Of a stretch of 64,000 nt of DNA, positions 7,422 through 48,044 are shown in pieces. Position numbers and translations under genes: made by a program. Under the pieces are notes generated by a model, which was not told where the DNA came from, did not search any database, and saw nothing but the letters and a program-made list of their open reading frames with translations. Source of the stretch: Gammaproteobacteria bacterium (GTDB taxonomy: Bacteria > Pseudomonadota > Gammaproteobacteria > Arenicellales > UBA868); the NCBI GenBank assembly GCA_022451485.1, contig JAKUQS010000007.1, positions 1 through 64,000 on the forward strand, written 5' to 3'. Every line of letters starts with the position of its first letter. Position 1 is the stretch's first letter.

Positions 7422-7459
7422 CCGATCGATTATTACTGACTCGAGCGGTTATTTCTTGA

Positions 7460-7477: not shown

Positions 7478-7486
7478 CTTGTTGTT

Positions 7487-7558: not shown

Positions 7559-7580
7559 TAGTTACTCTGGAGAGTTGGCT

Positions 7581-8993: not shown

Positions 8994-9039
8994 AATACGG
9001 GTCGTTTAGTCATCGGAAATCTCGGGGCTTACATCAACG

Positions 9040-9246
9040 CTACGCGGTCGCGTCGGGAACCAATTGTTTTTCGAGATGCGCGATACTGTCTTTAAGGAAT
9101 AGTTTTCTTTTCTTTAGACGACGCACCTGTAAATCATCGATGGTTGGATCAGCCGAGAGCGCCTCTAGTTGGCCATCAAGGGCCCGGTGCTCGGACTTTA
9201 GTTCGCTAATTCGGTTTGTCAGTGTATCGAATAATTCCACACCCAT
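9040..9246 (-). CDS. YdcH family (DUF465) small protein
   Basis: A 68-residue, highly charged helical protein that matches the YdcH/DUF465 pattern: an N-terminal helix (LTNRISELKSEHRALDGQL), a short turn with D-P, and a second helix rich in Lys and Arg (VRRLKKRKLFLKDSIAHLEKQL). The two helices probably form an antiparallel hairpin. The function of the family is unknown. The ribosome binding site GGAGA lies just before the ATG at 9246. The gene is convergent with ahcY and divergent from the pepN region. Confidence 0.8.
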   Translation of the reverse strand: MGVELFDTLTNRISELKSEHRALDGQLEALSADPTIDDLQVRRLKKRKLFLKDSIAHLEKQLVPDATA

Positions 9247-9293
9247 TGTCTCTCCTCAGTCATTGTCCAGCGGTTAACACTGGTAGTTAAGCA

Positions 9294-9506
9294 ATGGCAA
9301 CCTCAGTCCCGCTTTCTGGTGCCAAGGTGGTCGTGTCTATCCCCGCACCAAGTGACATGCTACTCCCTTTACCCACCACTTTCATCCCCTGTGCCGCTAG
9401 CGACGGCGAGATATTTCCCGTCCTGGCGAGCCGCTATCCGGTCCTATTATGGTCAGGTTGCGCTATTCTCTTGGTCCACACACTGATCATGCTGTTAGGG
9501 TCTTGA
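9294..9506 (+). CDS. Possible small membrane protein coupled to pepN
   Basis: A 70-codon frame whose TGA stop overlaps the pepN start codon as TGATG, the classic layout of translational coupling. The product has a low-complexity, proline-rich first half and a strong hydrophobic helix at the end (about residues 49-69, VLLWSGCAILLVHTLIMLLG), so it could be a tail-anchored small membrane protein. I recognise no family. The ribosome binding site before the ATG is weak (GGTAG, 13 bases upstream). It may be real or may be chance open frame. Confidence 0.3.
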   Translation: MATSVPLSGAKVVVSIPAPSDMLLPLPTTFIPCAASDGEIFPVLASRYPVLLWSGCAILLVHTLIMLLGS

Positions 9507-12163: not shown

Positions 12164-12256
12164 TACACAAACCGCTCGATTCACCATAATGAAGCCAACC
12201 CGACATATCGAGTGCTATGATGGCGGGGTTCTAACCGCTGTCTTGAAGAGCATACG

Positions 12257-12973
12257 GTGACTCGCTCACGCGACAAACTGCCGCAGACATCCACCCGGTC
12301 TGAAGTCGATTCATTCATCGACGCAATAAAGACAACCGCGGTGGGTCCCGTTGCCGACCAAAACGGTCGCTTGCTGTTCGCAATGGACGCAACAGCAAGC
12401 CGTGAAACCGTGTGGGATCGCGCTTGCCATATTCAAGGCCAGATGTTCAACGAAACCGTTTCCATCGGCGGTCTTAGCGTTCAACTCGCCCACTATGGCG
12501 GCTTTATGGAGTTTGCTGCAACACCCTGGACCAGCAACGCGCGCGACCTACTGCACTATATGACAGCAATCCGGTGCCACGCAGGACAAACTCAAATCGG
12601 CCAGGTACTCAAACACGCTCTGTCTGAATCTCGACGCGCCCGCATCCACGCACTGGTTTTTGTCGGTGACGCCATGGAAGAAGACCCCGATGCTCTCTAT
12701 AAAATGGCAGGTGAACTGGGTATTCTCGGCGTGCCTATGTTCCTCTTTCAAGACGGCAATGATCCAGTTGCCGAAGGTGCTTTTCGACGGCTGGCTGGAT
12801 TAAGCCATGGCGCCTATTGTCGCTTTGACAGCTCAAGCGCGGAACAACTGCGTGATCTCATGTGTGCCGTCGCTATTTTTGCAGTGGGTGGTCGCGTTGC
12901 ACTAGAGGATTTTTCTCGCCGCCGCGGCGGCACAGTGCGTCGCTTAACCCACACCTTTACCCCCAAGCCCTAA
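12257..12973 (+). CDS. von Willebrand factor A-like protein
   Basis: A 238-residue soluble protein with a VWA-type Rossmann fold: LLFAMDATASRE near residue 40 stands where the metal-site DxSxS motif would be (here Asp-Ala-Thr-Ala-Ser), and LVFVGDAMEED is a later strand-loop with acidic residues. Such proteins are usually metal-dependent binding or assembly factors. The start is GTG at 12257. The next gene, a J-domain membrane protein, begins three bases after the stop, so the two are an operon pair; the same pairing is familiar in alphaproteobacteria and some gammaproteobacteria. The function is not known. Confidence 0.75.
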   Translation: MTRSRDKLPQTSTRSEVDSFIDAIKTTAVGPVADQNGRLLFAMDATASRETVWDRACHIQGQMFNETVSIGGLSVQLAHYGGFMEFAATPWTSNARDLLHYMTAIRCHAGQTQIGQVLKHALSESRRARIHALVFVGDAMEEDPDALYKMAGELGILGVPMFLFQDGNDPVAEGAFRRLAGLSHGAYCRFDSSSAEQLRDLMCAVAIFAVGGRVALEDFSRRRGGTVRRLTHTFTPKP

Positions 12974-12976
12974 ACG

Positions 12977-13693
12977 ATGATCCGACTGCTTTTAGCCGCT
13001 ACTGCGTTGATCGCAGTGATCGCTCTGGCACGCTGGTTGGGGCGCGCCAATGCAGCACAGCGGTCCAAGATGCTGAAGCTGATCCTATTATATGGCGCCA
13101 GTGCAATCTTGCTGCTGCTGGTCATCACGGGGCGCCTGCCTTGGCTGTTCGCGTTGATCGGGGCCGCCTTACCCTGGCTACAACGGGCGATGATGGCGCG
13201 TCGGGCATGGAACACGTTTCGATCCATGCGTCGACCGCAAAGTGGCCAAAATTCGCGTGTTGAGACAGCTTTCTTGCGTATGACACTAGATCACGACACT
13301 GGTGATCTCAACGGCGAGGTAATCCAAGGGACATTTAGTGGATCGAAACTGTTAGATCTTTCCTTGGATCAGTTACTCGTATTGCTAGACCAATTACGTA
13401 CCGCTGATGCCCAATCTGCCGCCCTATTAGAGGCTTACCTCGATCGCACTCAGGGCGCATCCTGGCGCAAACAAGACGAAACAACCGCCGAAGAAACTGT
13501 CCATACTGCCGCTTCAACCCCGATGAACTGCCAGGAAGCAGCAGAGATCTTAGGCGTCAGCAGTGACGCGCCCCAAAAGGTCATTATTCAAGCCCACCGT
13601 CGACTAATTCAGCGATTGCATTCAGATCGCGGGGGATCCGATTACCTAGCGGCAATGATCAACAAAGCAAAAGATGTGTTACTGCAAAAATAA
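12977..13693 (+). CDS. Membrane-anchored J-domain (Pam18/DjlA-like) protein
   Basis: A 238-residue protein with N-terminal hydrophobic segments (about residues 3-20 and 34-65) and a C-terminal J domain (about residues 178-238: MNCQEAAEILGV, then AHRRLIQRLHSDRGGSDYLAAMINKAKDVL). J domains recruit DnaK/Hsp70 and stimulate its ATPase. The usual HPD tripeptide is His-Ser-Asp here (about residues 215-217). The rest of the loop (DRGGS) is well kept. The layout resembles mitochondrial Pam18/Tim14, with the J domain on the cytoplasmic side. It forms an operon with the preceding VWA gene, which may be its partner. Confidence 0.8.
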   Translation: MIRLLLAATALIAVIALARWLGRANAAQRSKMLKLILLYGASAILLLLVITGRLPWLFALIGAALPWLQRAMMARRAWNTFRSMRRPQSGQNSRVETAFLRMTLDHDTGDLNGEVIQGTFSGSKLLDLSLDQLLVLLDQLRTADAQSAALLEAYLDRTQGASWRKQDETTAEETVHTAASTPMNCQEAAEILGVSSDAPQKVIIQAHRRLIQRLHSDRGGSDYLAAMINKAKDVLLQK

Positions 13694-13808
13694 CGCACCC
13701 ACTAAAGCGTAATAAGCGCACTATAATTAAGGACCAAAGCAACTCGGCTGCCATGACCCTGTTATTCGCCACGGACATCACTATTTACGGTCGTCTAAAA
13801 CGGCTCCC

Positions 13809-15047
13809 GTGAACCCTGTAAATCATATCCAACGTCTGCTGCTCCGCATTTGGGCGGTACCACTTGTAGTCGCAATCGGAACCCTCGGGTGGCCAGCCTC
13901 ACTGGATTCACTGGAGCGTCAAAGCGTGTCAATTTGGGGCGTGGATCGGACATTAATATCCCAGACAATCTCGCCACCCCTATCAAACGGCCATTTCCCT
14001 TTGAGGATTCGGGTTAACCACAAAGATACACGCCATCCGTCATCAATCCAGTACACGATTGACGCTAGCCTGCAAAATGCAACAGCTGCCGTCCTGGATC
14101 ATTATCGTCCTGACTATGGTGTTTTTGTCGCCATTGATCCTGAGTCCGGACACCTGCTGGCTATCGCCAGTCACCAACGGGAGGGAACCCCTGAACATAA
14201 CCTAGCACTAAGAGGCGGTTACCCAGCGGCATCGGTATTCAAAATTATCACGGCCGCCGCAGCTGTCGAGCTGGGCAAAGTCCACGCTGACACTGTCTTA
14301 CCGTTCAATGGCAAAGAAACGAGCCTCTCCCGCAAGAACATACTCCATCATAAAAAAAACCAATGGACACGACACTTTACGGTAAAAAAATCATTCGCCA
14401 AATCAGTCAACACGGTGTTTGCACGAATGGGCATTGAGCTGGTAACCCGTGAGCACCTATTAGCCTATGCTGGGCGGTTTGGATTCAACCAATCCCTCGG
14501 ATCAGATTTCATTCATGACAACAGCACGTTTCAACTGGCGAGCGACGATCCATGGTTGATCGCAAAAACCGCCGCAGGATACACCCGCCAAACAACGCTC
14601 AATCCCATCCATGGTGCTGTCATTGCTGCGACCATTGCCAATGGAGGATACCGCGTGCGTCCAACCCTGGTTGATGCCCTGATTGAGGATCACGGTATTA
14701 TTCTTTATGAAGCGCCCCCCACGACCCGCCTACGGGTACTGACATCGAAAACGACAGACCAGTTACAAAAAATGATGGAGACAACGGTTCGCATCGGTTC
14801 GGCTAAATCATCTTTTAAAAACTTTTTTCGCGGCAATTACAGCGAAGTCCATGTCGGAGGGAAAACCGGCACCCTGACCGGTCTTGATCCACCTGGTCGC
14901 TATGATTGGTTTGTCGGGTACGCGCATCGGGGGCAAAAGAAACTGGCCTTTGCTAGCCTATGTATCAACCGAGAATACTGGCATGTAAAATCGGCATACG
15001 TCGCACGAAAAGCAATCGAGCATTACTTCTCGATCGACCCATCCTAA
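13809..15047 (+). CDS. Minimal penicillin-binding transpeptidase
   Basis: A 412-residue penicillin-binding protein with an N-terminal membrane anchor or signal helix (about residues 8-30) and then only a transpeptidase domain. The active-site motifs are SVFK at residues 141-144, SVN at about residue 200 and KTGT at about residue 352. There is no transglycosylase domain and no typical class B N-terminal dimerisation module; the region between anchor and catalytic domain is only about 90 residues. It should be a periplasmic D,D-transpeptidase or carboxypeptidase acting on peptidoglycan. The start is GTG at 13809 without an obvious ribosome binding site. It resembles transpeptidase-only proteins annotated as penicillin-binding protein; I cannot match it to PBP2, PBP3 or PbpC. 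Confidence 0.82.
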   Translation: MNPVNHIQRLLLRIWAVPLVVAIGTLGWPASLDSLERQSVSIWGVDRTLISQTISPPLSNGHFPLRIRVNHKDTRHPSSIQYTIDASLQNATAAVLDHYRPDYGVFVAIDPESGHLLAIASHQREGTPEHNLALRGGYPAASVFKIITAAAAVELGKVHADTVLPFNGKETSLSRKNILHHKKNQWTRHFTVKKSFAKSVNTVFARMGIELVTREHLLAYAGRFGFNQSLGSDFIHDNSTFQLASDDPWLIAKTAAGYTRQTTLNPIHGAVIAATIANGGYRVRPTLVDALIEDHGIILYEAPPTTRLRVLTSKTTDQLQKMMETTVRIGSAKSSFKNFFRGNYSEVHVGGKTGTLTGLDPPGRYDWFVGYAHRGQKKLAFASLCINREYWHVKSAYVARKAIEHYFSIDPS

Positions 15048-34108: not shown

Positions 34109-34939
34109 TTAGCGGAATTCTGAGGAATGCTGAAATTTGCGGACTGGAAATCCCTCGCGGACAGGTGCGGGACCGACCGGATTTAACTGGTGGAGATCCT
34201 CACCATGCGCCAGATAGGCTTCAAAGGTGGGCCACACGGACAGATCACACTGCACATTCGTCGGACTAAATCGCATGGTCAACCCGCAACGCATCCGCGA
34301 CGATTCGTTGGCACCAGAACTGTGCAGCAAGCGCGAGTCATGAAGCGACATTTCACCTGCTTTCATGCTCATGGTCACGATATCATTGTCGGAACAGGAC
34401 GAAATGTCGGCCTCTTGTTCAAGCACATAATGTGGCGCGTCATTCTCGTGATGCGTGAACTCGCCCCGCCGGTGGCTACCCGCCATAATGCGCATGGCCG
34501 CGTTGTCCTCATCAACGTCATACACAGCGAGCCAGACGCTGGTCGTTTTTTGCGGCGTGAGTGGCCAGTATTGCGCGTCCTGATGCCAAGGAACCTGCGA
34601 ACCATCGCCTGGGTATTTGACAAAAAACTGCCCTCCCCACTGATAAAAGTTAGCCCCCAGCACCGACTCCACATAACCAAGTATCATCGGGTGACGGCAA
34701 AAGCGGTAAAGCCAGGGGCTACACTTGTGCCACATATTCACCTGATTGATATCAATATCTTTGGGAAGTCGGGCCGCAAGTTCTTCAAACATTTTTTGCA
34801 ACTCGATGACCTCGGTTTCAGTGAGTGCAACGAGATTCTTAACGTAACCTTGTTCGTCATATTGCAACAACTGGTCCGCCGTTAGCTGTCCTGACCGAGA
34901 AGTCGCCGCAGGGGCTGTCCCTTCTGAATTTGTTGTCAT
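34109..34939 (-). CDS. Phytanoyl-CoA dioxygenase family protein
   Basis: A 276-residue Fe(II)/2-oxoglutarate-dependent oxygenase. The iron ligands are H119 and D121 in PWHQDAQYW and the distal H206 in LLHSSGANESS; an Arg in the same stretch is positioned for 2-oxoglutarate. The fold region YVKNLVALTETE and MAGSHRRGEF are family marks. In bacteria the family includes ectoine hydroxylase and other small-molecule hydroxylases, so phytanoyl-CoA is not implied as substrate. The gene lies between two molybdopterin blocks, on the opposite strand from moaC-moeA and the same strand as moaE, with no ectoine genes in view. Confidence 0.8.
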   Translation of the reverse strand: MTTNSEGTAPAATSRSGQLTADQLLQYDEQGYVKNLVALTETEVIELQKMFEELAARLPKDIDINQVNMWHKCSPWLYRFCRHPMILGYVESVLGANFYQWGGQFFVKYPGDGSQVPWHQDAQYWPLTPQKTTSVWLAVYDVDEDNAAMRIMAGSHRRGEFTHHENDAPHYVLEQEADISSCSDNDIVTMSMKAGEMSLHDSRLLHSSGANESSRMRCGLTMRFSPTNVQCDLSVWPTFEAYLAHGEDLHQLNPVGPAPVREGFPVRKFQHSSEFR

Positions 34940-35001: not shown

Positions 35002-35436
35002 TCAGCCTGGTGTGTTGCGAGAAACCCATCGCTCCCCGTCCAGTAATTTTTCCTTTTTCCAAAAAGGAGCCTTGGACTTCAACGCCTCCATGATCAAACG
35101 GCAGCTATCAAACGCTGCCTTTCGATGCGAGGACCAACAACCAACAAGGACAATCTCCTCGCCCGGATTAATGTCACCCACTCGATGCAGCACTAACACG
35201 TCCAGCAGCCCGTTCTCCTTGCTGACCTCATCGACAATAACGCCTAGTTGTTTTTCAGTCATCCCAGGATAATGCTCCAGATGCATCGTGCGCACCGTAT
35301 CCCCCTCGTTAAAATCTCGCATGCTGCCAACAAACGTAGCGCAAGCGCCCGCCTGATGGCGATGACTAGCCGAGCGGGTATACGCATCGAGTTCCTGCCA
35401 AGGATTGAAAGGCTGATGTCGAATCTCGATATGCAT
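35002..35436 (-). CDS. moaE: Molybdopterin synthase catalytic (large) subunit
   Basis: Transfers sulfur from MoaD thiocarboxylate onto cyclic pyranopterin to make molybdopterin. Motifs: GACATFVGSMRDFNEGD near residue 32, LEHYPGMTEKQL, VLHRVGDINPGEEIVLVGCWSSHRKAAFDSCRLIMEALKSKAPFWKKE, with the active-site Lys residues. The frame is open upstream to 35565, but the ATG at 35436 gives the family's normal start (MHIEIRHQPFNPW). It follows moaD after 13 bases in the same direction, so the two halves of the synthase are co-transcribed. Confidence 0.94.
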   Translation of the reverse strand: MHIEIRHQPFNPWQELDAYTRSASHRHQAGACATFVGSMRDFNEGDTVRTMHLEHYPGMTEKQLGVIVDEVSKENGLLDVLVLHRVGDINPGEEIVLVGCWSSHRKAAFDSCRLIMEALKSKAPFWKKEKLLDGERWVSRNTPG

Positions 35437-35449
35437 CACGAAGTGGTTT

Positions 35450-35680
35450 CTAGCCGCCAGTAATGGGTGGGAAAAATGCCACCTCGTCGCCATCAACGAC
35501 AGCCGCATCAAAATCAGCATACTCCTTATTGATGGCAACCAAGACCTCCGCTTCAGGCTCTTCACCCGTCACGGCATACCAAACATCCCTGACGCAAGAT
35601 GCTTCGTCTACATCAACAGAAAGACTGCCATGGCCGACCCGCTCTTTCAGGCTTGCAAAAAACCGTGCGTTAACACTCAT
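35450..35680 (-). CDS. moaD: Molybdopterin synthase sulfur carrier (small) subunit
   Basis: A 76-residue ubiquitin-like sulfur carrier, MoaE's partner. The C-terminal FPPITGG ends in the Gly-Gly that is adenylated and thiocarboxylated; VLVAINKEYADFDAAVVDGDEVAFFPP is the typical C-terminal half. N-terminal MSVNARFFASLKERVG matches MoaD. It lies 13 bases before moaE and is divergent from moaB. Confidence 0.93.
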   Translation of the reverse strand: MSVNARFFASLKERVGHGSLSVDVDEASCVRDVWYAVTGEEPEAEVLVAINKEYADFDAAVVDGDEVAFFPPITGG

Positions 35681-35768
35681 GTTGCTGTTACCGGCCCTTG
35701 GCTCAAAAAAGGTATCACACAGAATATGATAGTTTCTCTGTCACGCCACCTCAACCAGGCTCGCTCCT

Positions 35769-36299
35769 ATGGCCACTAATGACCGCGCTTTTATCCCCAC
35801 CACGATTGCTGTTCTGACGGTCTCCAATTCTCGCACTGAAGACGATGACAAATCAGGCAAGCTGTTGGTAGACCGAGTAACAGAAAGTGGACACCAATTA
35901 CACGAAAAAAGGATCGTTCGAGATGATATCTTCCAAATTCGGGCTGCTGTGTCATCCTGGATTGCGGAATCTGACGTTCAAGTTGTGGTAACAACCGGTG
36001 GGACCGGCGTTACCGGACATGACGGCACTCCGGAAGCCGTGCTCCCCCTGCTAGAGAAGACCATCGATGGCTTTGGCGAAATCTTCCGTTACTTGTCATA
36101 CGATGAAATCGGCACATCATCACTGCAGTCAAGAGCACTTGCCGGCGTTGCAAATGGTACATATATCTTCTGTCTGCCTGGTTCCTCAGGCGCGTGTCGA
36201 ACTGCCTGGGACAAACTGCTCCAACATCAGCTTGACTACCGTACTCGGCCCTGCAATCTGGTCGAATTAATGCCTAGACTACTCGAACATCGACAATAG
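35769..36299 (+). CDS. moaB: Molybdenum cofactor biosynthesis protein B
   Basis: A 176-residue MoaB/Mog-fold protein, thought to adenylate molybdopterin before metal insertion. Motifs: VLTVSNSRTEDDDKSGKLLVDRV, VVTTGGTGVTGHDGTPEAVLPLLEKTIDGFGEIFRYLSYDEIGTSSLQSRALAGVANGTYIFCLPGSSGACRTAWDKLL. These match MoaB well. It is divergent from moaD by 88 bases, and so may share a control region with it. Confidence 0.93.
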   Translation: MATNDRAFIPTTIAVLTVSNSRTEDDDKSGKLLVDRVTESGHQLHEKRIVRDDIFQIRAAVSSWIAESDVQVVVTTGGTGVTGHDGTPEAVLPLLEKTIDGFGEIFRYLSYDEIGTSSLQSRALAGVANGTYIFCLPGSSGACRTAWDKLLQHQLDYRTRPCNLVELMPRLLEHRQ

Positions 36300-36924: not shown

Positions 36925-38637
36925 CTAGGCGTAATACAGGAGCGAACTTGCGACCAGCAGGATCGCGACCCACAGAACCATGCTGCCGGTTGGCCATGTT
37001 CGTGCCAAAGTGCCTTCCGGTCCGTAATGTCGCCACACGATGCGTATCACCATACGTCCCAAACGATGCAATGTACGGTTCAATACGGCATTGGCCGCCA
37101 CCAGCCATTGCGTTCCAAACATCACAAGCCGGGGGACAAAGCGTCGATACACCCAGTCCACATCAAGATTAATGGCACGCTGCTCCCGCGGATAGAGGCC
37201 TGTACGCATCAGCACAACAAACGCAAGCGCGGCAAACAGCAGTAACTGAAGTTGCGTAAGCGAGTGCCCAAGATCACCGTAGGGCTGGTAGGTGACCGGA
37301 TAAGGAAGAATCGCGTAAAGCGGCTGTGGAAAAAACCCGATACCCAAGCAAAGCCCCGCCGCCGCCGCCATGGCAACCAACATGTGAGTCGGTGCCTCCT
37401 TGCAACGAATGCCCGAATCATGGCCAAAAAATGCGAAAAAAGGCACCTTGATCCCAGAGTGCTCCATCACTCCTGCAGACGCAATCAGAAGCCCAATCCA
37501 TACCAACACGTAGCTCCCTTCAACCACTGCCGACATGGTCAACGACTTAGCGACAAAACCACTGAACAAGGGGAAAGCGGAAATAGACATGGCGCCGACA
37601 ATACAAAATGCAGCGGTCCACGGCATCGATCGGTACAACCCACCAAGATCCGTCGCGCGAATCGTGCCGGTTCGATAGAGCACGGCACCCATGGACATAA
37701 AGAGCAATGCCTTATAAATAATGTGCACGAAAGCATGTGCGACGGCGCCATTCAGCGCCAGTTCGGTCCCGATGCCGATGCCCACCACCATGAACCCGAG
37801 TTGATTGTTAAGACTGTAGGACAAGACTTTTCTAAGGTCGTTTTCAATGACCGCGAAGAAAATGGGGAACAAAGTCATCACCACACCGATGACAATCAAT
37901 ACCTCAGTACCGGGAAACCCTCGCGCCAACGCGTAAACTGCCAGCTTAGTGGTGAAGGCACTCAAGAAAACTGCGCCGGTCACCGTCGCCTGAGGATAGG
38001 CGTCCTGCAACCAGTTATGTAGGAACGGAAACGCGCACTTAATGGCAAAGGCGACCAGGATCAGTAGCACACCTGGGTCTGCGTCAGCCAACTGCCCGCT
38101 GGTGCTGATTAACTGCTCAAAAGCGAGGGAACCGGTGTGCTGGTAGTAGAGCAAAATACCCGACAACAAAAGCACACCGGAACCAACTTGAATTATTAGA
38201 TAGCGCATACCAGCCCGGTAGGCCTGTTCACTGCCACTCGCCCAAATTAGGAACACCGATGAAAGCGCCGTGATTTCCCAATAAATAAACAGCGTCATCA
38301 GATCGCCAGCAAACACGGCGCCGATGGCGCTACCTACATAGACCAGTGCAGAGACCTGCTGTGTGGTGTCCCGAATATGGAGCGCATACAGGGCTGCGAG
38401 AAAGGCGGCAATATGAAAGATATAGCCGAAAATAAGACTCAGTCGGTCCACTCGAACCAGGGTTAATTCGTACCCTGCGACTCCGATTTGGCCGGATAAC
38501 CCCTCGGGCAGTAACAACAGCTGTATAAGCCCAAGCACGGGCAACACCAATGAAACCACGGGTCGCGTGGCGCCTGGCAGCCACGGCAAGACCAGTCCAC
38601 CAAGGATTAAAATTAGACCCGGTGGAACGCTAGTCAT
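36925..38637 (-). CDS. Third NuoL/M/N-like antiporter subunit (MrpD-like)
   Basis: A membrane protein of about 570 residues with about 14 hydrophobic helices, of the proton-pumping antiporter-like (NuoL/M/N, MrpA/D) family. The key TM5 Glu is in LFIYWEITALSS, and the TM7 Lys in FAIKCAFPFLHNWLQDAYPQ; a later Lys lies in FTTKLAVYALARGF. It has an extra C-terminal portion of about 100 residues compared with the two paralogues upstream. The start I use is ATG 38637, overlapping the small upstream gene by 8 bases. As the last gene of the operon it may be an MrpA-like or complex-specific add-on. It would sit in the inner membrane and help exchange Na+ or K+ for H+. Confidence 0.88.
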   Translation of the reverse strand: MTSVPPGLILILGGLVLPWLPGATRPVVSLVLPVLGLIQLLLLPEGLSGQIGVAGYELTLVRVDRLSLIFGYIFHIAAFLAALYALHIRDTTQQVSALVYVGSAIGAVFAGDLMTLFIYWEITALSSVFLIWASGSEQAYRAGMRYLIIQVGSGVLLLSGILLYYQHTGSLAFEQLISTSGQLADADPGVLLILVAFAIKCAFPFLHNWLQDAYPQATVTGAVFLSAFTTKLAVYALARGFPGTEVLIVIGVVMTLFPIFFAVIENDLRKVLSYSLNNQLGFMVVGIGIGTELALNGAVAHAFVHIIYKALLFMSMGAVLYRTGTIRATDLGGLYRSMPWTAAFCIVGAMSISAFPLFSGFVAKSLTMSAVVEGSYVLVWIGLLIASAGVMEHSGIKVPFFAFFGHDSGIRCKEAPTHMLVAMAAAAGLCLGIGFFPQPLYAILPYPVTYQPYGDLGHSLTQLQLLLFAALAFVVLMRTGLYPREQRAINLDVDWVYRRFVPRLVMFGTQWLVAANAVLNRTLHRLGRMVIRIVWRHYGPEGTLARTWPTGSMVLWVAILLVASSLLYYA

Positions 38638-38875
38638 TGTAGTAATCGTCATCACGCCGAATCACCCGGCGCAGCTGCTTGCCAAGCAGCACAATTCCGG
38701 CGAAAGCGACGAATCCAAAGATCGCATAGAACCCGGGCCAACCCTCCCAAGGGTAAGTCGCATGGCGATGCACGAACCACTCGACGACGACGAGGGCCGC
38801 GCAAACAGCCGCCAGCCACCCAAAAACGGCAGCTGAGATGATTTTTCTTGTGTCGTGCTTTTCAGGTTTGTTCAT
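38630..38875 (-). CDS. Small two-helix membrane protein of the antiporter operon
   Basis: An 81-residue protein with two hydrophobic helices (about residues 12-32 and 46-66), a charged N-terminus (MNKPEKHDTRK) and a charged tail (RRVIRRDDDYYND). I do not recognise a family. It sits between two antiporter-like subunits, 5 bases after one stop and overlapping the next start by 8 bases, so it is certainly co-translated with them. It may be a small structural or assembly subunit. Confidence 0.72.
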   Translation of the reverse strand: MNKPEKHDTRKIISAAVFGWLAAVCAALVVVEWFVHRHATYPWEGWPGFYAIFGFVAFAGIVLLGKQLRRVIRRDDDYYND

Positions 38876-38880
38876 GTGTC

Positions 38881-40338
38881 CTACTCAACAAACTGGTGTG
38901 CCAGCTGAACAATCCAAGTGGGATTAAAAAACAATGCGACGCACCCGACCACGGTCACACCCATGGCAATAAGGCAAGCGATAGGTGCTTCTCGAATTTG
39001 TATTTCACCGCCAGCGTCCGCCTTACCAAGGAAGGCGCGAATAGGCACCGGAATCAAATATGCAATGTTCAACAAAGTGCTCACCATGAGCACGCCCACG
39101 AGTACAACATATCCCGCATCTATTGCGCCAAGAGCGAGATACCACTTACCCCACATACCGCCCATTGGCGGCAGCCCAACGATGCTTAGACTTGCCAAGA
39201 AAAACGCCCCCATGGTCCACGGCATCTGGCGACCCAAGCCATCCAACTGGCTAACCTTGGTCTTGTGGCTGGCAACGAGAATGGCCCCAGCACAAAAAAA
39301 CAAGGTGATTTTGCCAAATGCATGGGTTGCAAGATGCAAGGTGCTGCCGGCGAGCGCAGTCGAATTCACCAGTAATGCACCCATAACAATATAGGACAAC
39401 TGGCTAATTGTTGAATAAGCAAGGCGCGCCTTGAGGTTATCCTGGCGCAGTGCAATAACCGACGCCACCAGAATGGTGAACGCCGCGACCCACAATAACC
39501 AGTCTGTCACACCAGTATCTCGAAGCAGATCTAGCCCGAAGATATAAACCGTGATCTTAAGGATCGCAAAGACCCCGGCCTTAACAACCGCTACAGCGTG
39601 TAGCAGCGCGCTGACGGGCGTTGGTGCCACCATCGCCGCGGGCAACCAACGATGAAAAGGCATCAGCGCGGCCTTACCTATACCAAACACATAAAGCGCG
39701 AACAGCACCCCAATCACCAGCGGCGATGCCGCTCCACCAAGAATGCCACCCGATGTAAAACTGACATTGCCCGTCAGCTTCCAGGTCCATACAACAGCCA
39801 ACAGTAAAAACCCCATAGAAGTGGCCATCAGGATGCCGAGATAGGTCCGGCCACCCTGACGCGCTTCCTGAGTCCCCGCATGAGTAACCAGCGGATACGT
39901 CGACAAAGTCAATACTTCGTAAAAAACGAACAAAGTGAATAGGTTGTCAGCAAATGCGACGCCCATCGTGCAACCCATGGCAACTGCAAAAAAAGTGTAG
40001 AAACGCGTCTGATGGGCTTCACCATGACCTCGCATATACCCAATTGAATAAACCGTGGTCACAATCCAAAGGAAACTCGCAATCAATCCGAACAACACCC
40101 CCAACGGCTCGGCACTGACCGCCAGTGATAAGCCGGGTATTGGCTCTGCCAAGACCGCCGCGGGCCAATCCCCTGACAGCGCGCGGGGTAGTAGTCGCAC
40201 GACTAATGCCAGCAAAATCACGCCAGCCGCGAGGCTTATGGCTTCGCGCAGATTTGGCCTCGACCCTGCCAACATAACGGCCAAAGCCCCTAACAGCGGG
40301 ACGACTACCACGCCGATGAGCGCCGCTTGTTCGCTCAT
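38881..40338 (-). CDS. Second NuoL/M/N-like antiporter subunit (MrpD-like)
   Basis: A 485-residue inner-membrane protein with about 14 helices. TM5 Glu is in LFTLFVFYEVLTLSTYPLVTH, the TM7 Lys in GIGKAALMPFHRWLPAAMVAPTPVSALLHAVAVVKAGVFAIL, which carries the HAVAVVKAG motif. The two charged positions considered essential for ion movement are intact. The first methionine overlaps the upstream mrpD-like stop by 4 bases. It is the closest to the NuoM/MrpD type. Confidence 0.9.
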   Translation of the reverse strand: MSEQAALIGVVVVPLLGALAVMLAGSRPNLREAISLAAGVILLALVVRLLPRALSGDWPAAVLAEPIPGLSLAVSAEPLGVLFGLIASFLWIVTTVYSIGYMRGHGEAHQTRFYTFFAVAMGCTMGVAFADNLFTLFVFYEVLTLSTYPLVTHAGTQEARQGGRTYLGILMATSMGFLLLAVVWTWKLTGNVSFTSGGILGGAASPLVIGVLFALYVFGIGKAALMPFHRWLPAAMVAPTPVSALLHAVAVVKAGVFAILKITVYIFGLDLLRDTGVTDWLLWVAAFTILVASVIALRQDNLKARLAYSTISQLSYIVMGALLVNSTALAGSTLHLATHAFGKITLFFCAGAILVASHKTKVSQLDGLGRQMPWTMGAFFLASLSIVGLPPMGGMWGKWYLALGAIDAGYVVLVGVLMVSTLLNIAYLIPVPIRAFLGKADAGGEIQIREAPIACLIAMGVTVVGCVALFFNPTWIVQLAHQFVE

Positions 40339-41813
40339 CCGTTCGATCCTGTCAACAAAGCCGCAGCCTGCTCCGCCATGCCAACACTGAATCGTGTATC
40401 AATCCCGAAATAAACATTCGCCCCCGCCAACAACCACGTCGGCAATAACAAGGATATCGGGGCCTCCGTCACTGACAACTTTTCCGGTGCAGGGCGCAAA
40501 TACGCCATCTCCACCACACGCCAGACATAAATAATTGCCAGCAGTGAGCCGGCGACAACCACCACCACGAGAGGCCACCAGCCGCGTTCTACCGCCGCTA
40601 GGATCAAATACCATTTGCTGACGAAACCAGCCGTTAGCGGGATGCCAATTAAGCTGAGTGCCCCGACAACGAAAGCGGCCATCGTCCAGGGCATGCGCTG
40701 CCCAAGGCCCGCGATGGCACCGAGGCGCACAGTACCCAAGCGGTAAGCAACACAACCCAGTGCGAGAAAAAGCGCCCCCTTCATCAAAGCATGATTGAAC
40801 AGATGTAACACGGCGGCCGTTAGACCCGCGCTCGATACCAAGCTGATACCAAGCACCATATAACCAACCTGCGCGACGCTCGAATAAGCCAACATCCGCT
40901 TAATGTTGTCCTGAAAGATAGACACGGTGGAGGTTGACAGGATGCCCGCCGCAGCCAGTACCGCCAGAAAGCCACCGAGCGACATTGCGCCGAAGGTAAA
41001 TGAAGCATCAAATACATCGAATAAAAAACGCAACAACATATACACCGCCACCTTAGTAGCCGTGGCCGCTATGAAAACAGTTACCGCCGAGGGCGCATAG
41101 GTATACGCGTTGGGCAACCACAGGTGCAGCGGGAAAAGTGCCAACTTAAGACCGATACCCACCGTGAGGAACGCAAGCCCCGTCTGAACCGTCCGACTAT
41201 CGCCCAGCACCGCTAAACGCGTAGCCAAATCCATCATGTTCAGTGTCCCAGTCACCATATATAGAAGCCCGATACCAATGAGGATGAGCGTCGCCCCGAT
41301 CGTCCCCATGATGAGGTACTGAAATGATGCGGTTAGGGCCCGGCGGTCCTGGCCAAGACCGATAAGAACGTAACTCGACAAGGAAGAAATCTCGAGAAAA
41401 ACAAACAGATTGAACACATCTCCGGTGATGGCAATACCCAACAACCCGGTTAAACACAGCAACCATGCGGTGTAAAACAAGCACTGCTTATCACCCGCCA
41501 CCTCCTGAGCCACGCTCGTCTTGGCAAACATCAGGGTTACAGTGCTGATCGCCGTGACAATAATGAGGATAAGTGCATTCACCGCATCGACTCGATACTC
41601 GATGCCCCACGGCGCGGCCCAGCCCCCGATCGCATAAGAAATCACCTCGCCCGTATAAACTTCGCGAAGCAACACAATAGAAATCCCTAGGGCCACTACG
41701 CTGACCGCAAGCGCCAGCAACCATGCCCACATCGCTCGCGTCAACAAAAGACATAGCGGTGCCGCGACCAGCGGCAATGCCACCTGCAAAACCGGCAGGT
41801 GTTCCTGAATCAC
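40335..41813 (-). CDS. mrpD: Na+/H+ antiporter subunit D
   Basis: A 492-residue membrane protein that fits MrpD/MnhD. TM5 Glu lies in LFVFLEISSLSSYVLIGLG, the TM7 Lys in GIGLKLALFPLHLWLPNAYTYAPSAVTVF, and a second Lys in ATATKVAVYMLLRF. Together they form the proton path of the antiporter core. It overlaps mrpC by 4 bases at its start and the second D-like gene by 4 bases at its end, as expected for stoichiometric expression. Confidence 0.93.
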   Translation of the reverse strand: MIQEHLPVLQVALPLVAAPLCLLLTRAMWAWLLALAVSVVALGISIVLLREVYTGEVISYAIGGWAAPWGIEYRVDAVNALILIIVTAISTVTLMFAKTSVAQEVAGDKQCLFYTAWLLCLTGLLGIAITGDVFNLFVFLEISSLSSYVLIGLGQDRRALTASFQYLIMGTIGATLILIGIGLLYMVTGTLNMMDLATRLAVLGDSRTVQTGLAFLTVGIGLKLALFPLHLWLPNAYTYAPSAVTVFIAATATKVAVYMLLRFLFDVFDASFTFGAMSLGGFLAVLAAAGILSTSTVSIFQDNIKRMLAYSSVAQVGYMVLGISLVSSAGLTAAVLHLFNHALMKGALFLALGCVAYRLGTVRLGAIAGLGQRMPWTMAAFVVGALSLIGIPLTAGFVSKWYLILAAVERGWWPLVVVVVAGSLLAIIYVWRVVEMAYLRPAPEKLSVTEAPISLLLPTWLLAGANVYFGIDTRFSVGMAEQAAALLTGSNG

Positions 41814-42169
41814 AAGGAGTCGTCCTGCCGGTGAATGTCTTCTTCTTCCACCGAGCCGTAGGCTTCCTTGATGCGGACTACGAGGGCCAGGCCCAAGGCC
41901 GTCGTCGCAACACCCACGACGATGGCTGTGAGAATAAGCACGTGGGGCAATGGATTAGAGAAAACGCTCACGCCGTTTCGAAGAATCGGTGCCGCGCCGC
42001 CCTCTACCGTACCCATACTGATGTAGAGAATAAAAACAGATGCCTGAAACAGGTTGAGGCCAATCAATTTTTTTACCAGGTGTCCACTAGCGATGACCAC
42101 ATAAAACCCCATCATCATTAACAAGATGACAATCCAATAGTTGTAAAGCCCCAGAAAATCCATAGTCAA
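41810..42169 (-). CDS. mrpC: Na+/H+ antiporter subunit C (NuoK-like)
   Basis: A 119-residue protein with three hydrophobic helices, NuoK-like: FLGLYNYWIVILLMMMGFYVVIASGHLVKKLIGLNLFQASVFILYISMG and LTAIVVGVATTALGLALVVRI. The Glu of the second helix that complex I NuoK uses is less evident here. It overlaps mrpB and mrpD by 4 bases each. Confidence 0.9.
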   Translation of the reverse strand: MTMDFLGLYNYWIVILLMMMGFYVVIASGHLVKKLIGLNLFQASVFILYISMGTVEGGAAPILRNGVSVFSNPLPHVLILTAIVVGVATTALGLALVVRIKEAYGSVEEEDIHRQDDSL

Positions 42170-42585
42170 TCTGACGTCCGTCCGGCAAACGCAACGAAAA
42201 CAGTGATCATGACCGCTGCGACAGTAATCCCTACACCGAGCTCTACCAGAAAGACACCCAGATGCTGACCCGCTAGAGGTTCTTGGGCCAACGCGTCATA
42301 GTCCAGATAGCGCTCTCCGCCTAGAAGAGACCAAAATCCCACTCCCGCGAAAAGCAGCAGGCCTAGAGCCGTCACGATGCGCAACGCTGTTGCGGAAAAC
42401 ACCCGCTCAATAGCCTCGACTCCAAACACCAGCCCATACAAAATGAAGGCTGCTGCAAAGATCACCCCCGCCTGAAACCCGCCGCCGGGGCCGTAATCGC
42501 CGTGGAACTGGACATACAGGGAAAACACCAAAATCACCGGCACAATGATCTTAGCAACTACGCGAAGAACTGCGTTGTCTTTCAC
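42166..42585 (-). CDS. mrpB: Na+/H+ antiporter subunit B (MnhB domain)
   Basis: A 139-residue protein with four hydrophobic helices and the MnhB signature FHGDYGPGGGFQAGVIFAAAFILYGL near residue 28. It belongs to the MrpB/MbhF family. It overlaps its neighbours by 4 bases on each side, as do the other genes of the operon. Confidence 0.92.
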   Translation of the reverse strand: MKDNAVLRVVAKIIVPVILVFSLYVQFHGDYGPGGGFQAGVIFAAAFILYGLVFGVEAIERVFSATALRIVTALGLLLFAGVGFWSLLGGERYLDYDALAQEPLAGQHLGVFLVELGVGITVAAVMITVFVAFAGRTSD

Positions 42586-43121
42586 GACTCGTCCCTTTTA
42601 CGTCGGCGAATGCCGAGGAGCGCGAGCACGCCAACGCCCGCAGTAAAAATCACCGTCAACTCCCCCAGCGTGTCGTAACCTCGGTAACTGGCCAGCACTT
42701 CAGTGACCACATTGGGAATACCAATTTCCATCGGTGACTCTTGAAGATAGCGAGGAGCAACGTGTTGATGAATCGGCGCTAATGGATCACCAAAGTGCGG
42801 CATGTCGAGGGTGCCATAAACCAGCACCATCCCGGTGAGGCTCACCACCGCCAGGGGCAAACCAGGTCGGTGGGCTGGTCGCTTTTCATGGCGCCCTACC
42901 AGCCCAATCGTCGCCAACATCAAAACCGTAGATATCCCTACGCCAACGGCCGCCTCGGTAAAGGCCACATCAACCGCATCCATCGCGACGAATATCGCTG
43001 CTGCCAACAGACTGTAGATACTGAATATCATGACAACAGCAAACAGATCATGCAGCCGTATAGCTGCTATTGCCGTCACTACAAGCAGCCCAAACAAAAT
43101 CACGGTGATGACTTCAATCAT
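42582..43121 (-). CDS. MbhD/MbhE-like (DUF4040) antiporter subunit
   Basis: A protein of 179 residues with a DUF4040/MbhD region (VILFGLLVVTAIAAIRLHDLFAVVMIFSIYSLLAAAIFVAMDAVDVAFTEAAVGVGISTVLML; the FTEAAVG stretch is characteristic) and then an MbhE-like loop and helix (YRGYDTLGELTVIFTAGVGVLALLG). This is the part that in standard Mrp operons forms the C-terminal end of the large MrpA protein. So here MrpA is split, as in the archaeal Mbh hydrogenase. I start it at ATG 43121, where it overlaps mrpG by 8 bases. Confidence 0.88.
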   Translation of the reverse strand: MIEVITVILFGLLVVTAIAAIRLHDLFAVVMIFSIYSLLAAAIFVAMDAVDVAFTEAAVGVGISTVLMLATIGLVGRHEKRPAHRPGLPLAVVSLTGMVLVYGTLDMPHFGDPLAPIHQHVAPRYLQESPMEIGIPNVVTEVLASYRGYDTLGELTVIFTAGVGVLALLGIRRRKRDES

Positions 43122-43431
43122 CGTGCGTGAGTCCCATCCATGGCCGGCGCAATCCATGAAGCGCTGCCCGCGCCAACGCATGACAAGCCGTTGGATTCAA
43201 CAACAATAAAAACGCCAGCATCAGCAACAACTTGACCAACAGAAGACTAAATCCAGCCTTTAGGGCCAAACCAAGAAGCACGCCCGCAGCACCAAGCGTG
43301 TCGGTGATCCCCGCCGCGTGCAATCGCGTAAACACGTCCGGCATGCGGACAATGCCAATACTTCCGATCAGCGCAAACACGCTGCCCACCAGAAGCAAAA
43401 TCGCACTCACAACACCCATGATATCCATCAT
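43114..43431 (-). CDS. mrpG: Na+/H+ antiporter subunit G
   Basis: A 105-residue MnhG/MrpG protein: three hydrophobic helices with the conserved GSIGIVRMPDVFTRLHAAGITDTLGAAGVLLGL. It overlaps mrpF by 4 bases and the DUF4040 gene by 8 bases. It would be an auxiliary, needed for complex assembly in known Mrp systems. Confidence 0.92.
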   Translation of the reverse strand: MMDIMGVVSAILLLVGSVFALIGSIGIVRMPDVFTRLHAAGITDTLGAAGVLLGLALKAGFSLLLVKLLLMLAFLLLLNPTACHALARAALHGLRRPWMGLTHDD

Positions 43432-43730
43432 TTGCGCGGCGGTTCTACCGGCGTCGACCGGACAGCACCCGCTTGGCCCAAATTGCCAAATTCAGAAACT
43501 TTGAGCACCGCCACCGTAGCGATAAAACCGACCAGGGTATACATCAACGCTATGTCAACGTAGTACTCCGCCTCACCGACCAAAAAGCCAAGTGCCGCGA
43601 TCAGCAGTACCGTTTTTGTACTGAACATGTTGGCCGCTAAAATGCGATCGTATACCGTCGGGCCTTTTACAGCTCGCAGTAATGCGAGCGCCATGGATAC
43701 CAGCAACACGAGTAAAGTCAGTGTTAGCAT
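43428..43730 (-). CDS. mrpF: Na+/H+ antiporter subunit F
   Basis: A 100-residue MrpF/MnhF protein. Family signature: LLRAVKGPTVYDRILAANMFSTKTVLLIAALGFL, including the buried Asp that is proposed to take part in sodium movement. Three helices. It begins at the base after the mrpE stop (TAGATG) and overlaps mrpG by 4 bases. Confidence 0.92.
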   Translation of the reverse strand: MLTLTLLVLLVSMALALLRAVKGPTVYDRILAANMFSTKTVLLIAALGFLVGEAEYYVDIALMYTLVGFIATVAVLKVSEFGNLGQAGAVRSTPVEPPRK

Positions 43731-44216
43731 CTAGCGCGATTCGCAGGCTGTCACGCGTCGGCCCATCTCGTTTGTACAAAGATCGTGGGCACCTTCACCT
43801 GTCAACGCGTGAACTTCTATTGCGTCGTCCTCCACTTCAAGCGTAATCGTCCCAGGAGTCAAGGTAATCGAGTTTGCGTAAACCACCCGCCCGACCACTG
43901 TCGTTTGATCCGCGTGCACCCGTACCGTCGTTGGCTCAATCGGCAGTGATGGCGTCAGCACGCGGCGAGCGACATCTATATTCGATGCAACGACTGCCCG
44001 CGCTAACCATGGCAAGTAAGCAATTAACCGCGGTAACTGTTGCATGGGCAGCCCCTCAGCGTCATCGATGTCCATGCGCCGCGCCATCCATACCGTCACC
44101 CCGACAGACAAAACACCCAACAGGAGCAAGCGTACATCCCAATGGCCAGATAACATTATCCACAGCGCTGACAGCAGTGTTCCCAACAAAACTGACCGCA
44201 TATTTGACGGTGTCAT
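43731..44216 (-). CDS. mrpE: Na+/H+ antiporter subunit E
   Basis: First gene of the antiporter operon. A 161-residue MnhE protein with two hydrophobic helices and a soluble domain with VVYANSITLTPGTITLEVEDDAIEVHAL, the family's hallmark. A longer open frame begins at 44261, but the ATG at 44216 has GAGG about 12 bases upstream. The 141 bases to the upstream Nudix gene hold no clear promoter; weak candidates are seen only. In known Mrp systems the operon exports Na+ and imports H+ under alkaline or salty conditions. Confidence 0.9.
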   Translation of the reverse strand: MTPSNMRSVLLGTLLSALWIMLSGHWDVRLLLLGVLSVGVTVWMARRMDIDDAEGLPMQQLPRLIAYLPWLARAVVASNIDVARRVLTPSLPIEPTTVRVHADQTTVVGRVVYANSITLTPGTITLEVEDDAIEVHALTGEGAHDLCTNEMGRRVTACESR

Positions 44217-46511: not shown

Positions 46512-47340
46512 CCAAGACCTCGTTGCCGCTATTGAAGCTGTTTGCCAAGACAAGAACGTCCCGGCAGTAAGCGGAATTCATCTGCCCCCTGCAAGAGCCG
46601 ACGGGACACCGTGCAAGAAATTTGGCGCCGTTGAGCTCGCTGATGGGAGTTGTGGGTTTTTTTCTACCCACTTTGATAACGCCCTGCCAGCGTTGCAAAG
46701 TGCGATTGAATCAACGCCCATCCTCAATCATTGCGCGCTATCGTTATCACGACACTTCGCTGGTACAAATGCAGCACTATGCGCGCTTGGCCTCGGTGCC
46801 AGCAATGCGCTCAGTCAACACCACTTCGCCTCCTCCTCAAAACAACTCGACCTGGCACCCGACCCCCTGGTGGGCCTTCATCCACGTGGTAGCGATCATG
46901 TCGGCATGGTTGGCTTCTTTCGACCCCTTCTTGACCTGATGCCTGATGAAGCATCGCTGACCATCATCGAACAAAACCCCAGATTTCTGTGTGAGGTAGG
47001 GCGTTTTACAGTGACGCTAGATCTTTCTCAACTCAAGGACTGCAACCCCGTTTTCATAACCGCGCTCACTTTGCTTAACGGCAGTCTAGATGAGGTACTC
47101 ACTCACTGCTCGACCTCAGCGCAGATTGCCGTCATCGGCCCCACTGCCAGCTGTCTTCCTGAACCCCTATTCGCACGCGGTGTCGAGGCGGTAGGGAGTG
47201 CACGTGTTGTGCGCCTGGCACACTTTCGAGAAAAGTTACTCACGGGACAACCGTGGGCCGAAACGGTTGCCAAATATTCTATTCACCGCGACCAGTACCA
47301 TAGCGTTGGGCACAACAGTTCGACACATGCAAAACAATGA
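46501..47340 (+). CDS. DUF364/DUF4213 family protein (putative heavy-metal chelation)
   Basis: A 279-residue soluble protein with an N-terminal DUF4213-like domain (about residues 1-90, including CKKFGAVELADGSCGFFSTHF) and a Rossmann-like DUF364 domain (from GLHPRGSDHVGMVGFFRPLLDLM). The family is described as a putative metal-chelating fold and no function is settled. The true start is ATG 46501, inside trmL; the open frame running upstream to 46186 is a shadow of trmL. It overlaps trmL by 11 bases and the channel gene by 4 bases (ATGA), so it is co-translated with both. Confidence 0.75.
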   Translation: MSFNQDLVAAIEAVCQDKNVPAVSGIHLPPARADGTPCKKFGAVELADGSCGFFSTHFDNALPALQSAIESTPILNHCALSLSRHFAGTNAALCALGLGASNALSQHHFASSSKQLDLAPDPLVGLHPRGSDHVGMVGFFRPLLDLMPDEASLTIIEQNPRFLCEVGRFTVTLDLSQLKDCNPVFITALTLLNGSLDEVLTHCSTSAQIAVIGPTASCLPEPLFARGVEAVGSARVVRLAHFREKLLTGQPWAETVAKYSIHRDQYHSVGHNSSTHAKQ

Positions 47341-48044
47341 TCGATTTCTTTAACTGTCTTCGCAACAATCGATGGTTTCAAGCCGTCGTTATCGGCGTCA
47401 TTCTATTATCAGCGGTTGCCTCGGGCGGTCGCACTTACCCACTCAGCGACGCTGCTCTTTTATTGATTGACCAAATTGATTATGCGATCACACTGTTTTT
47501 CGTGGTTGAGTTGTTAGTCCGCTTCATCGGCGAACCAAGGAAACGGGATTTCCTAAAAAATGGCTGGAACGTATTCGATAGTGTGATCGTCTTGATTTCC
47601 TTGATTCCCATTGACCGCAGCGAATCCGCCTTCTTGCTTCGTCTGTTGCGAATCTTCCGCGTATTACGACTGATCTCTGTACTGCCGGAGTTGCGGTTTA
47701 TCATCGACAGTATGCTCAAAGCCATCCCCAGAATCTTTTATGTCTGTCTGTTGTTGTTCATCATTGTCTATATTTACGGTACCTTCGGCTCGATGGTTTT
47801 CGCTGACACAGATCCTGCGCGTTGGTCTGACGTTGGGATTGCTATGCTCACGCTAGTCCAAGTGATGACGCTATCAAGCTGGGAAACGGTTATGTTGCCT
47901 ATCCAACAGGTCTTTCCGTTTGCTTGGATCTACTTTTTGAGTTTTATCTTCATCGCTGGCGTCGCCGTATTCAATCTCATTATCGCCGTGTTAGTGGACG
48001 TCATGAATGCGACACGCGAGCAAGAAAACGCTGACACGGATTAA
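47337..48044 (+). CDS. Voltage-gated cation channel of the bacterial sodium-channel (NaChBac) family
   Basis: A 235-residue six-helix channel subunit. S1-S3 are about residues 13-30, 47-64 and 75-90. S4 (about 98-120, RLLRIFRVLRLISVLPELR) has Arg at every third place and is the voltage sensor. S5 is about 130-155, the pore loop about 167-186, S6 about 196-224. The filter reads TLSSWE (T178 to E183), where NaChBac has TLESWA and NavAb TLESWS, so the ring Glu is Ser and a Glu lies three places later. The end is a short charged tail (NATREQENADTD). It overlaps the DUF364 gene by ATGA. Ion choice cannot be assumed to be sodium. Confidence 0.88.
   Translation: MIDFFNCLRNNRWFQAVVIGVILLSAVASGGRTYPLSDAALLLIDQIDYAITLFFVVELLVRFIGEPRKRDFLKNGWNVFDSVIVLISLIPIDRSESAFLLRLLRIFRVLRLISVLPELRFIIDSMLKAIPRIFYVCLLLFIIVYIYGTFGSMVFADTDPARWSDVGIAMLTLVQVMTLSSWETVMLPIQQVFPFAWIYFLSFIFIAGVAVFNLIIAVLVDVMNATREQENADTD

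Follow-up and report, generated by a model that had tools for sequence, protein, structure and literature searches.

An Mrp-type operon with three antiporter-like subunits and a conserved small protein in a gammaproteobacterium of the order Arenicellales

Group 3 Mrp antiporters are defined by the absence of mrpA and the presence of mrpD, at times in several copies, and the stand-alone Mrp of Pyrococcus furiosus, mrpEFGBB'CD, which is of this published type, has an MrpB that is a fusion of MbhD and MbhE; a strain deleted for this cluster has been studied for its pH response (PMC8415708). The group 3 Mrp of Candidatus Nitrospira alkalitolerans has two NuoM/NuoL-like genes after mrpD (PMC7784846), the Solemya velum symbiont carries MrpEFGBBCDD (PMC4287430), Unc8 carries MrpEFGBBBCD together with MrpDD (PMC6305446), and Na+/H+ antiport has been reported for a cyanobacterial cluster, mrpCD1D2EFGAB (PMC5703873). 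Two MrpD-like subunits also replace NuoL in the green complex I of rhizobia (PMC9040806; also PMC7415380), and Mrp antiporters are seen as representing an ancestor of the complex I pumping arm (PMC7419157). The subject here is a related ten-gene operon on the minus strand at positions 36925-44216 of a 64,000-nucleotide stretch (the window) of contig JAKUQS010000007.1, from the draft genome GCA_022451485.1 of a gammaproteobacterium of the order Arenicellales.

The operon consists of ten intact open frames, most of which abut or overlap by 4 nt, in the order E-F-G-J-B-C-D1-D2-sm-D3, where J is of the MbhD/E type, D1 to D3 are antiporter-like subunits and sm is a small protein (Table 1). Nine of the ten frames are placed by Pfam and NCBIfam, with sm as the exception, the Pfam families being MNHE, MrpF_PhaF, PhaG_MnhG, MbhD+MbhE, MnhB, Oxidored_q2 and three Proton_antipo_M; frames and families together bear out the gene order given in the original prediction, which was made from the letters of the window. 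Every Mrp subunit type is present and intact except a fused MrpA, J (199 aa) being encoded apart from every D gene, and the NCBIfam model PRK12507 (336 positions) spans J and B in tandem. The mrpE, F, G, B, C and D families therefore stand together without mrpA and with three D-type genes, as in group 3; the head and tail in one MrpA chain that mark groups 1 and 2 are not found in the window. Because D1 is of the MrpD type, D2 and D3 are separate from MrpA and the gene content fits this definition, the operon is probably a stand-alone group 3 Mrp-type cation/proton antiporter of extended build, to which a probability of about 0.72 is given.

The operon and the stand-alone Mrp of P. furiosus share the order E-F-G-MbhD/E-B-C-D, the separate MrpA tail and the lack of an energy-input module, whereas the window adds D2, D3 and the small subunit after D1. 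The earlier description of the cluster as an Mbh-like membrane arm without the hydrogenase was therefore a fair one, since the order matches this archaeal system (PMC8415708). The Pyrococcus Mbh and Mbs complexes resemble the window in the MbhD/E-like J, in the clustering of D1 with MbhH and MbsH and in the sister position of D3 to MbsH', but the window lacks their hydrogenase or sulfane reductase module. Judged by description, the cluster of Ca. Nitrospira alkalitolerans likewise has three D-type genes in a group 3 setting and perhaps the same content, although a small subunit is not mentioned in the available account (PMC7784846); the Solemya velum symbiont and Unc8 clusters share EFG-BB-CD with extra D subunits, but their subunit families and a small gene are not part of the descriptions at hand. 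The gene content and the D families are covered by existing annotation models, and group 3 Mrp systems with several D genes are in print; what is new, as far as the searches reach, is that sm is tied to D3, that D2 and D3 stand apart from MrpA, and that the D2-sm-D3 cassette is found with so wide a range of engines.

The arrangement is constant in relatives. A scan of named genomes returned 459 D3 relatives, and in the best 80 of these (the named loci) all ten families are found in 61, with the window order in 61 of 61; J and B are fused to one protein in three of the 61 complete copies. The 19 incomplete named loci lie mostly at contig ends, and none shows another order. As the order is constant in all complete loci, the ten-gene arrangement is not a product of chance. 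By a context rule, 67 of the 80 were classed as Mrp; in 12 a contig end falls close to the D genes, and the remaining one (L086) has just D2-sm-D3.

In a family tree of 64 rows, which includes ten of the named loci and has several long branches, D1 falls in a clade with MbhH, MbsH and NuoN (support 96/91) and neighbors MrpD (87/96), and a D1+MrpD clade is not rejected by the approximately unbiased (AU) test (p 0.34). D2 and D3 form two distinct clades, each joined to its counterpart from the Ensifer nuo2 locus at 100/100 (12 rows in the case of D2), and a branch supported at 100/96 separates MrpA, NuoL, DabB and HyfD from both; a sister relation of D3 and MbsH' is moderately supported (89/95). 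The AU tests covered four groupings: besides D1+MrpD, these were D2+D3 as sisters, which is not rejected (p 0.21), and D3+MrpA (p 0.012) and D2+MrpA (p 0.006), which are. The position of D2 and D3 relative to MrpD is read from the tree, which places neither with it. The cut-off of PRK12668 is exceeded by D3 of both the window and Ensifer nuo2, and the nearest model for D2 is PRK08375.1-1, with a score below its cut-off. By these sequence comparisons D1 is assigned to the MrpD/MbhH/NuoN type, with D2 and D3 in families of their own.

These results bear on the alternative that the operon is a standard Mrp whose MrpA has merely been split, with D3 (or D2) as the head and J as the tail. J is homologous to the MrpA tail, and the predicted structure of D3, with a predicted local distance difference test (pLDDT) score of 80.8, shows an antiporter-type core followed by one helix at 500-544 and a final one at 557-575, a lateral-helix architecture for which the top Foldseek match is MrpA (7qru_A). 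In the VIA comparison of this model, MrpD scores Z 42 across the core and the NuoL and MbsH' chains Z 41, which amounts to ties within 1, and the alignment of the NuoL and MbsH' chains reaches at least D3 residue 543, within the long helix. Such likeness is outweighed by the AU rejections, by the branch that parts D2 and D3 from MrpA, NuoL and DabB, if in a tree with several long branches, and by the extra D and small subunit present in every complete named copy; a split standard MrpA was rejected on the AU tests, and is considered highly improbable. Of the original claim of a split MrpA, the separate tail gene stands, but the head of MrpA is not simply to be equated with either D2 or D3. Grouping of the two with MrpA and MrpD had been named as the outcome that would reduce the cluster to an ordinary Mrp; for MrpA it did not appear in the AU tests, and with MrpD the tree does not place them.

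In an alignment of 289 sequences, four residues are kept in D1, D2 and D3 of the window, respectively: the Glu of transmembrane helix (TM) 5 at E141, E141 and E127, the TM7 Lys at K223, K222 and K206, the TM8 Lys at K254, K253 and K237, and the TM12 Lys at K400, K398 and K370. The TM5 Glu and TM7 Lys reported earlier for all three D proteins are accordingly present, and the TM8 and TM12 Lys can be added to them. Both the TM7 and the TM8 Lys occur in 70/70 D1, 75/75 D2 and 80/80 D3 proteins of the named loci, and the TM5 Glu and TM12 Lys are equally constant there, bar one X each. Acidic residues of the kind that take part in sodium binding in work on solved Mrp structures (PMC9568556) are found in J and F. 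The MbhD-type Glu of J (TEA, in the helix DAVDVAFTEA) lies four residues before the MrpA Glu position in comparison with three MrpA proteins, J keeps the GYDTLGE Glu common to MrpA, and the GP..DR Asp is retained in F, as shown by alignment to the MrpF proteins of three MrpA-containing systems carried on plasmids; these J and F motifs are conserved among family members and, in our reading of the alignments, would correspond to the numbered residues of that work.

The small tenth protein is predicted to form main helices at 15-37 and 47-72 (pLDDT 70.8, predicted template modeling score 0.45), and its conserved pattern ends in R.EDYYD. No family in Pfam or NCBIfam is matched over cut-off; the scattered weak matches (best in the PDB at E 0.25), which included SLAC1, holin, pilin-like and other families with at most 4 of 28 members each, were taken as noise. 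Next to D3, sm is found in 181 of 181 loci, 178 by rule and three (L212, L246 and L251) on a second look at stop-to-stop frames, where the matches had E values of 3e-4 to 5e-5 in single-locus searches. With a profile built from 28 sequences, sm is detected in 21 of 398 genomes of the window phylum, the same 21 that hold D3. In nine loci for which 4.4 kb or more could be read upstream (L200, L211, L215-L219, L239 and L250, six of them close relatives), sm and D3 are present and D2 was not found; as the pair persists there, sm goes with D3. Other Mrp genes were likewise not found upstream of sm-D3 in these nine, and in L219 the pair adjoins a LysR regulator gene and a glutamate-synthase-small-subunit-like gene. 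A second sm copy (contig C154) in genome G442, which is one of the 21 and 71% complete, has no listed D3 at E 1e-90 and speaks against strict pairing. The original prediction had listed the small gene but overlooked its conservation. In the open-access literature searched, mostly at the level of listings, no name for sm was found.

The distribution of the system is broad but patchy. Hosts of the named loci include alpha-, beta- and gammaproteobacteria, and further record titles name Planctomycetota, Acidobacteria, Thermoanaerobaculales, Gemmatimonadetes and Deltaproteobacteria. D3 exceeds the PRK12668 cut-off in 61 of 100 genomes made up of the window's own and 99 relatives, in 21 of the 398 genomes of the window phylum (its own included), and in 30 of 297 and 51 of 294 genomes, respectively, of the phyla to which the genomes holding L054 and L047 belong; as D3 is found in only part of the genomes scanned, relatives without it are common. 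The D3 proteins of L044, L047 and L221 are among the nearest outside the closest relatives of the window, at 70% identity, with L044 and L047 coming from records titled Planctomycetota, which suggests gene transfer or misbinned contigs. D1, D2 and D3 of L098, from a record titled Oceanobacillus sp. HTM 045, group with those of Thermohalobaculum (L100), so the Bacillota record was probably contaminated by this contig from an alphaproteobacterium. One search for viral spread confirmed no relative in viral contigs.

In other organisms the D2-sm-D3 cassette is also seen in settings other than an Mrp operon. The 181 loci classed by context comprise 136 Mrp, nine complex I, two Mrp with Nuo, 12 other and 22 cut loci; they are not independent samples, as D3 is identical in L047 and L221. 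In the nine complex I loci, which have the order J-K-D2-sm-D3-M-N, the cassette replaces nuoL: L120 and L139-L141 are nuo2 loci of rhizobial type, and L197, L198, L220, L222 and L223 come from two phyla outside that of the window and hold the cassette between nuoK and nuoM. Their D3 proteins form one clade with 100 in the Shimodaira-Hasegawa-like approximate likelihood ratio test, and we take all nine to be the green complex I described in rhizobia; the operons in the two other phyla would widen its range beyond the published accounts found. The Ensifer nuo2 locus, by our identification the published green complex I, has its D-type pair in the D2 and D3 families with a relative of sm between them. 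In the window the same families are found, but behind E-F-G-J-B-C-D1 rather than in the nuoL place of a nuo operon.

A further arrangement is seen in genome G837 (L204 and L255, contig C7), where nuoA-B-C-D-E-F-G-H-I (A, B, D, F, G, H and I by Pfam, C and E by BLAST), a metallo-beta-lactamase-fold gene and a DUF481 gene are followed by an Mrp arm of the order E-F-G-MbhD-MbhE-B-C-D1-D2-sm-D3. Genome G877 (L201 and L256, contig C14) has the same from nuoB on, where its contig ends, and nuoJ-N were found on neither strand of the stretches read in the two. This is possibly a hybrid of complex I and Mrp, counted as one case rather than two because the D3 proteins are closely related, and no such hybrid was found in the open-access literature searched, mostly listings. 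In L160 (G033:C9:114600-134100, 5097-14576), from a genome of the window's order, D2-sm-D3 lies between a gene for a fused Cyt_bd_oxida_I/cytochrome c protein and multihaem cytochrome c/EB_dh genes, and the D3 core is followed by a short tail of 46 residues, the median for Mrp rows being 90. By gene content L160 is like the TO_2 complex, which is described as restricted to Ca. Manganitrophaceae (PMC9040806). The bd-like protein is found in 11 of 109 genomes of the order, and among the ten loci returned D2 lies in the short flanks only at L185, which is the same place as L160, so the pairing of oxidase and cassette rests on one genome. G033 carries this cassette, a three-pump Mrp (L159) and, in L179 (G033:C27:6767-7138), an MnhB match within a 953-aa frame, the size of a fused group 2 MrpA. 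Two orphan cassettes, L149 and L086, were also seen, with MnhB elsewhere in both genomes.

The TM7 Lys of D3 differs among these settings. Among 109 D3 proteins it is Asn in all nine green complex I loci, both copies of the nuoA-I hybrid and L160, as well as in 22 of 87 rows labeled Mrp, with Ser in one further row and Cys in one orphan. These labels come from a quick context tree that counts as Mrp any row not specially labeled otherwise, including L225 (D1-D2-sm-D3, with E, F, G, J, B and C not found), which is 'other' in the 181-locus count; 13 cut or doubtful loci, L239 among them, were dropped, and L086 and 19 of the other 79 named loci were used. A loss of this Lys tracking redox contexts was considered and rejected, since Asn is present in all 12 redox-linked D3 proteins and yet also in the 22 Mrp rows; as the 36 rows without the Lys are exactly those outside one 73-row clade holding the window, the loss is not independent evidence.

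On the strength of such relatives, the window operon could be a membrane arm that docks with a redox or soluble partner encoded elsewhere, for example complex I, and is driven by electron transfer, or drives it, instead of exchanging ions by itself: the Mrp arm of G837 follows nuoA-I with nuoJ-N not found in the stretches read, G877 agrees from nuoB on, the cassette takes the place of nuoL in nine of 181 loci, and in L160 it sits between the bd-like oxidase and multihaem cytochrome genes. No redox partner gene was found near the window operon or in the stretches around the 80 named loci, where no Nuo-type gene was found either, and nuo genes and an Mrp arm occur together in only two of the 181. 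Clustering of the flanks gave no recurring partner gene, the largest family reaching 20 of 80 loci with neither a fixed position nor a fixed strand, with more than 2.5 kb covered upstream in 55 and downstream in 65 of them. The window genome, a draft of 3.14 Mb in 118 contigs and 92.67% complete, also has its own NuoL, NuoM and NuoN: of its six Proton_antipo_M proteins, the three other than D1-D3 lie on contig C27 and fall with these subunits in the tree. Docking of this kind is judged unlikely at the window. The earlier suggestion of a module for another partner is thus not upheld there, given the lack of a conserved neighbor, but does describe relatives with complex I, bd-like oxidase or nuoA-I genes. 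A hydrogenase partner was dismissed as well, since no [NiFe]-type catalytic module was found among the nine neighboring proteins scanned and Complex1_49kDa matches in the draft genome are confined to one NuoD frame on contig C27, so that a group 4 hydrogenase large subunit is not seen in it.

That the operon moves another substrate (inorganic carbon, K+ or Ca2+, for example), with protons delivered by the antiporter-like subunits, has in its favor that such subunits are shared with DabB and that ion specificity varies among Mrp systems. DabA (PF10070), the partner that marks the DAB inorganic carbon transporters, was found in none of 61 genomes searched, including that of the window, three DabB sequences fall with NuoL rather than with D1-D3, and E, F, G and B are all present. 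A DabA/DabB link was dropped on these grounds, and another substrate appears quite improbable. The absence of hydrogenase and DabA genes noted in the original prediction holds for the neighbors and genomes searched.

Under the preferred reading of a stand-alone antiporter, the product of the ten genes is most likely a large membrane complex in which protons are exchanged for sodium or an ion like it. The ion, direction, stoichiometry, assembly and role of sm are proposed by analogy. From homology with solved Mrp, MBH and complex I structures, E-F-G-B would form a sodium module at one end, followed by J and C and then by D1, D2 and D3 in a row, with D3 at the far end, its C-terminal helix running along D2 and D1 as does the lateral helix of NuoL and MrpA, and the two-helix sm bound to it. 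The membrane potential would drive protons inward through the Glu/Lys axes of D1-D3, charge changes would travel along these axes as far as J, whose acidic residues lie next to C and F, and a cation (most likely Na+) would be picked up from the cytoplasm near J, C and F and then expelled. With three proton-conducting subunits instead of two, the ratio of protons to sodium may be higher than in an ordinary Mrp.

Several points weigh against this reading. The same cassette occurs among redox genes in other organisms, and the literature searched yielded no activity data for this exact operon type. As D2 and D3 are not MrpA orthologues, the analogy of D3 with the MrpA head rests on fold and presumed position. 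The cation is not predictable, since one Mrp with Ca2+/H+ activity is on record (PMC5703873), and its site need not match that of MrpA, given the four-residue shift of the Glu in the MbhD helix of J.

Table 1. Subunits encoded by the operon, in gene order (positions in the window)
Feature	Position	Strand	Evidence
MrpE-like subunit, 161 aa	43731..44216	-	Pfam MNHE 101 bits
MrpF-like subunit, 100 aa, GPT..DR Asp kept	43428..43730	-	Pfam MrpF_PhaF 51.6 bits
MrpG-like subunit, 105 aa	43114..43431	-	Pfam PhaG_MnhG_YufB 89.8 bits
J, MbhD+MbhE fusion, counterpart of MrpA C-terminal domain	42582..43181	-	Pfam MbhD 57.6, MbhE 37.3 bits
MrpB-like subunit, 139 aa, GTG start	42166..42585	-	Pfam MnhB 103.9 bits; PRK12508 186.9 bits (cut-off 120)
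MrpC-like subunit, NuoK-like, 119 aa, TTG start	41810..42169	-	Pfam Oxidored_q2 77.2 bits
D1, antiporter-like subunit of MrpD/MbhH/NuoN type, 492 aa	40335..41813	-	Proton_antipo_M 222.8 bits; tree
D2, antiporter-like, family of first MrpD-like protein of green complex I, 485 aa	38881..40338	-	PRK08375.1-1 561.5 bits (below cut-off 663)
sm, small conserved two-helix subunit, 81 aa	38630..38875	-	no library family; adjoins D3 in 181/181 loci
D3, antiporter-like with C-terminal long helix and extra last helix, 576 aa, GTG start	36925..38655	-	PRK12668 723 bits (cut-off 564)

For J, an in-frame ATG at 43121 is, in our reading, a likelier start than that of the frame. A NUDIX gene on the same strand lies 141 bp upstream of the operon, which makes co-transcription from further upstream possible, and a convergent AhpC-TSA peroxiredoxin gene is found at the opposite (D3) end. 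MoaE, ThiS-type (MoaD-like) and MoCF_biosynth genes of molybdopterin synthesis adjoin the operon at 35002-36299, with a PhyH gene at 34109-34939. An Ion_trans family protein of 235 aa, perhaps a sodium channel of the voltage-gated type, is encoded on the plus strand at 47337-48044, about 3 kb from the operon.

Taken across all settings, D2-sm-D3 (at minimum sm-D3) can tentatively be viewed as a portable ion-pumping end-module with a dedicated small subunit, attached to a cation antiporter, to the complex I of more than one phylum, where it substitutes for NuoL, and to a bd-like oxidase/cytochrome complex, while the entire Mrp arm, sodium module included, has been joined to a NuoA-I dehydrogenase. 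If true, the combination of NuoA-I with Mrp would be a hybrid of Mrp and complex I that works as a sodium-pumping NADH dehydrogenase; should the two be expressed as a single complex, nature would offer a way to test whether a sodium module can be driven by complex I. The strictly conserved sm, nameless in the libraries searched, would alter the subunit lists of group 3 Mrp and green complex I. The window operon would itself be a three-pump form of the complex I-like arm without a redox engine, and as these parts recur in its relatives next to a variety of engines, comparison could serve to test how pumps come to be added and coupled.

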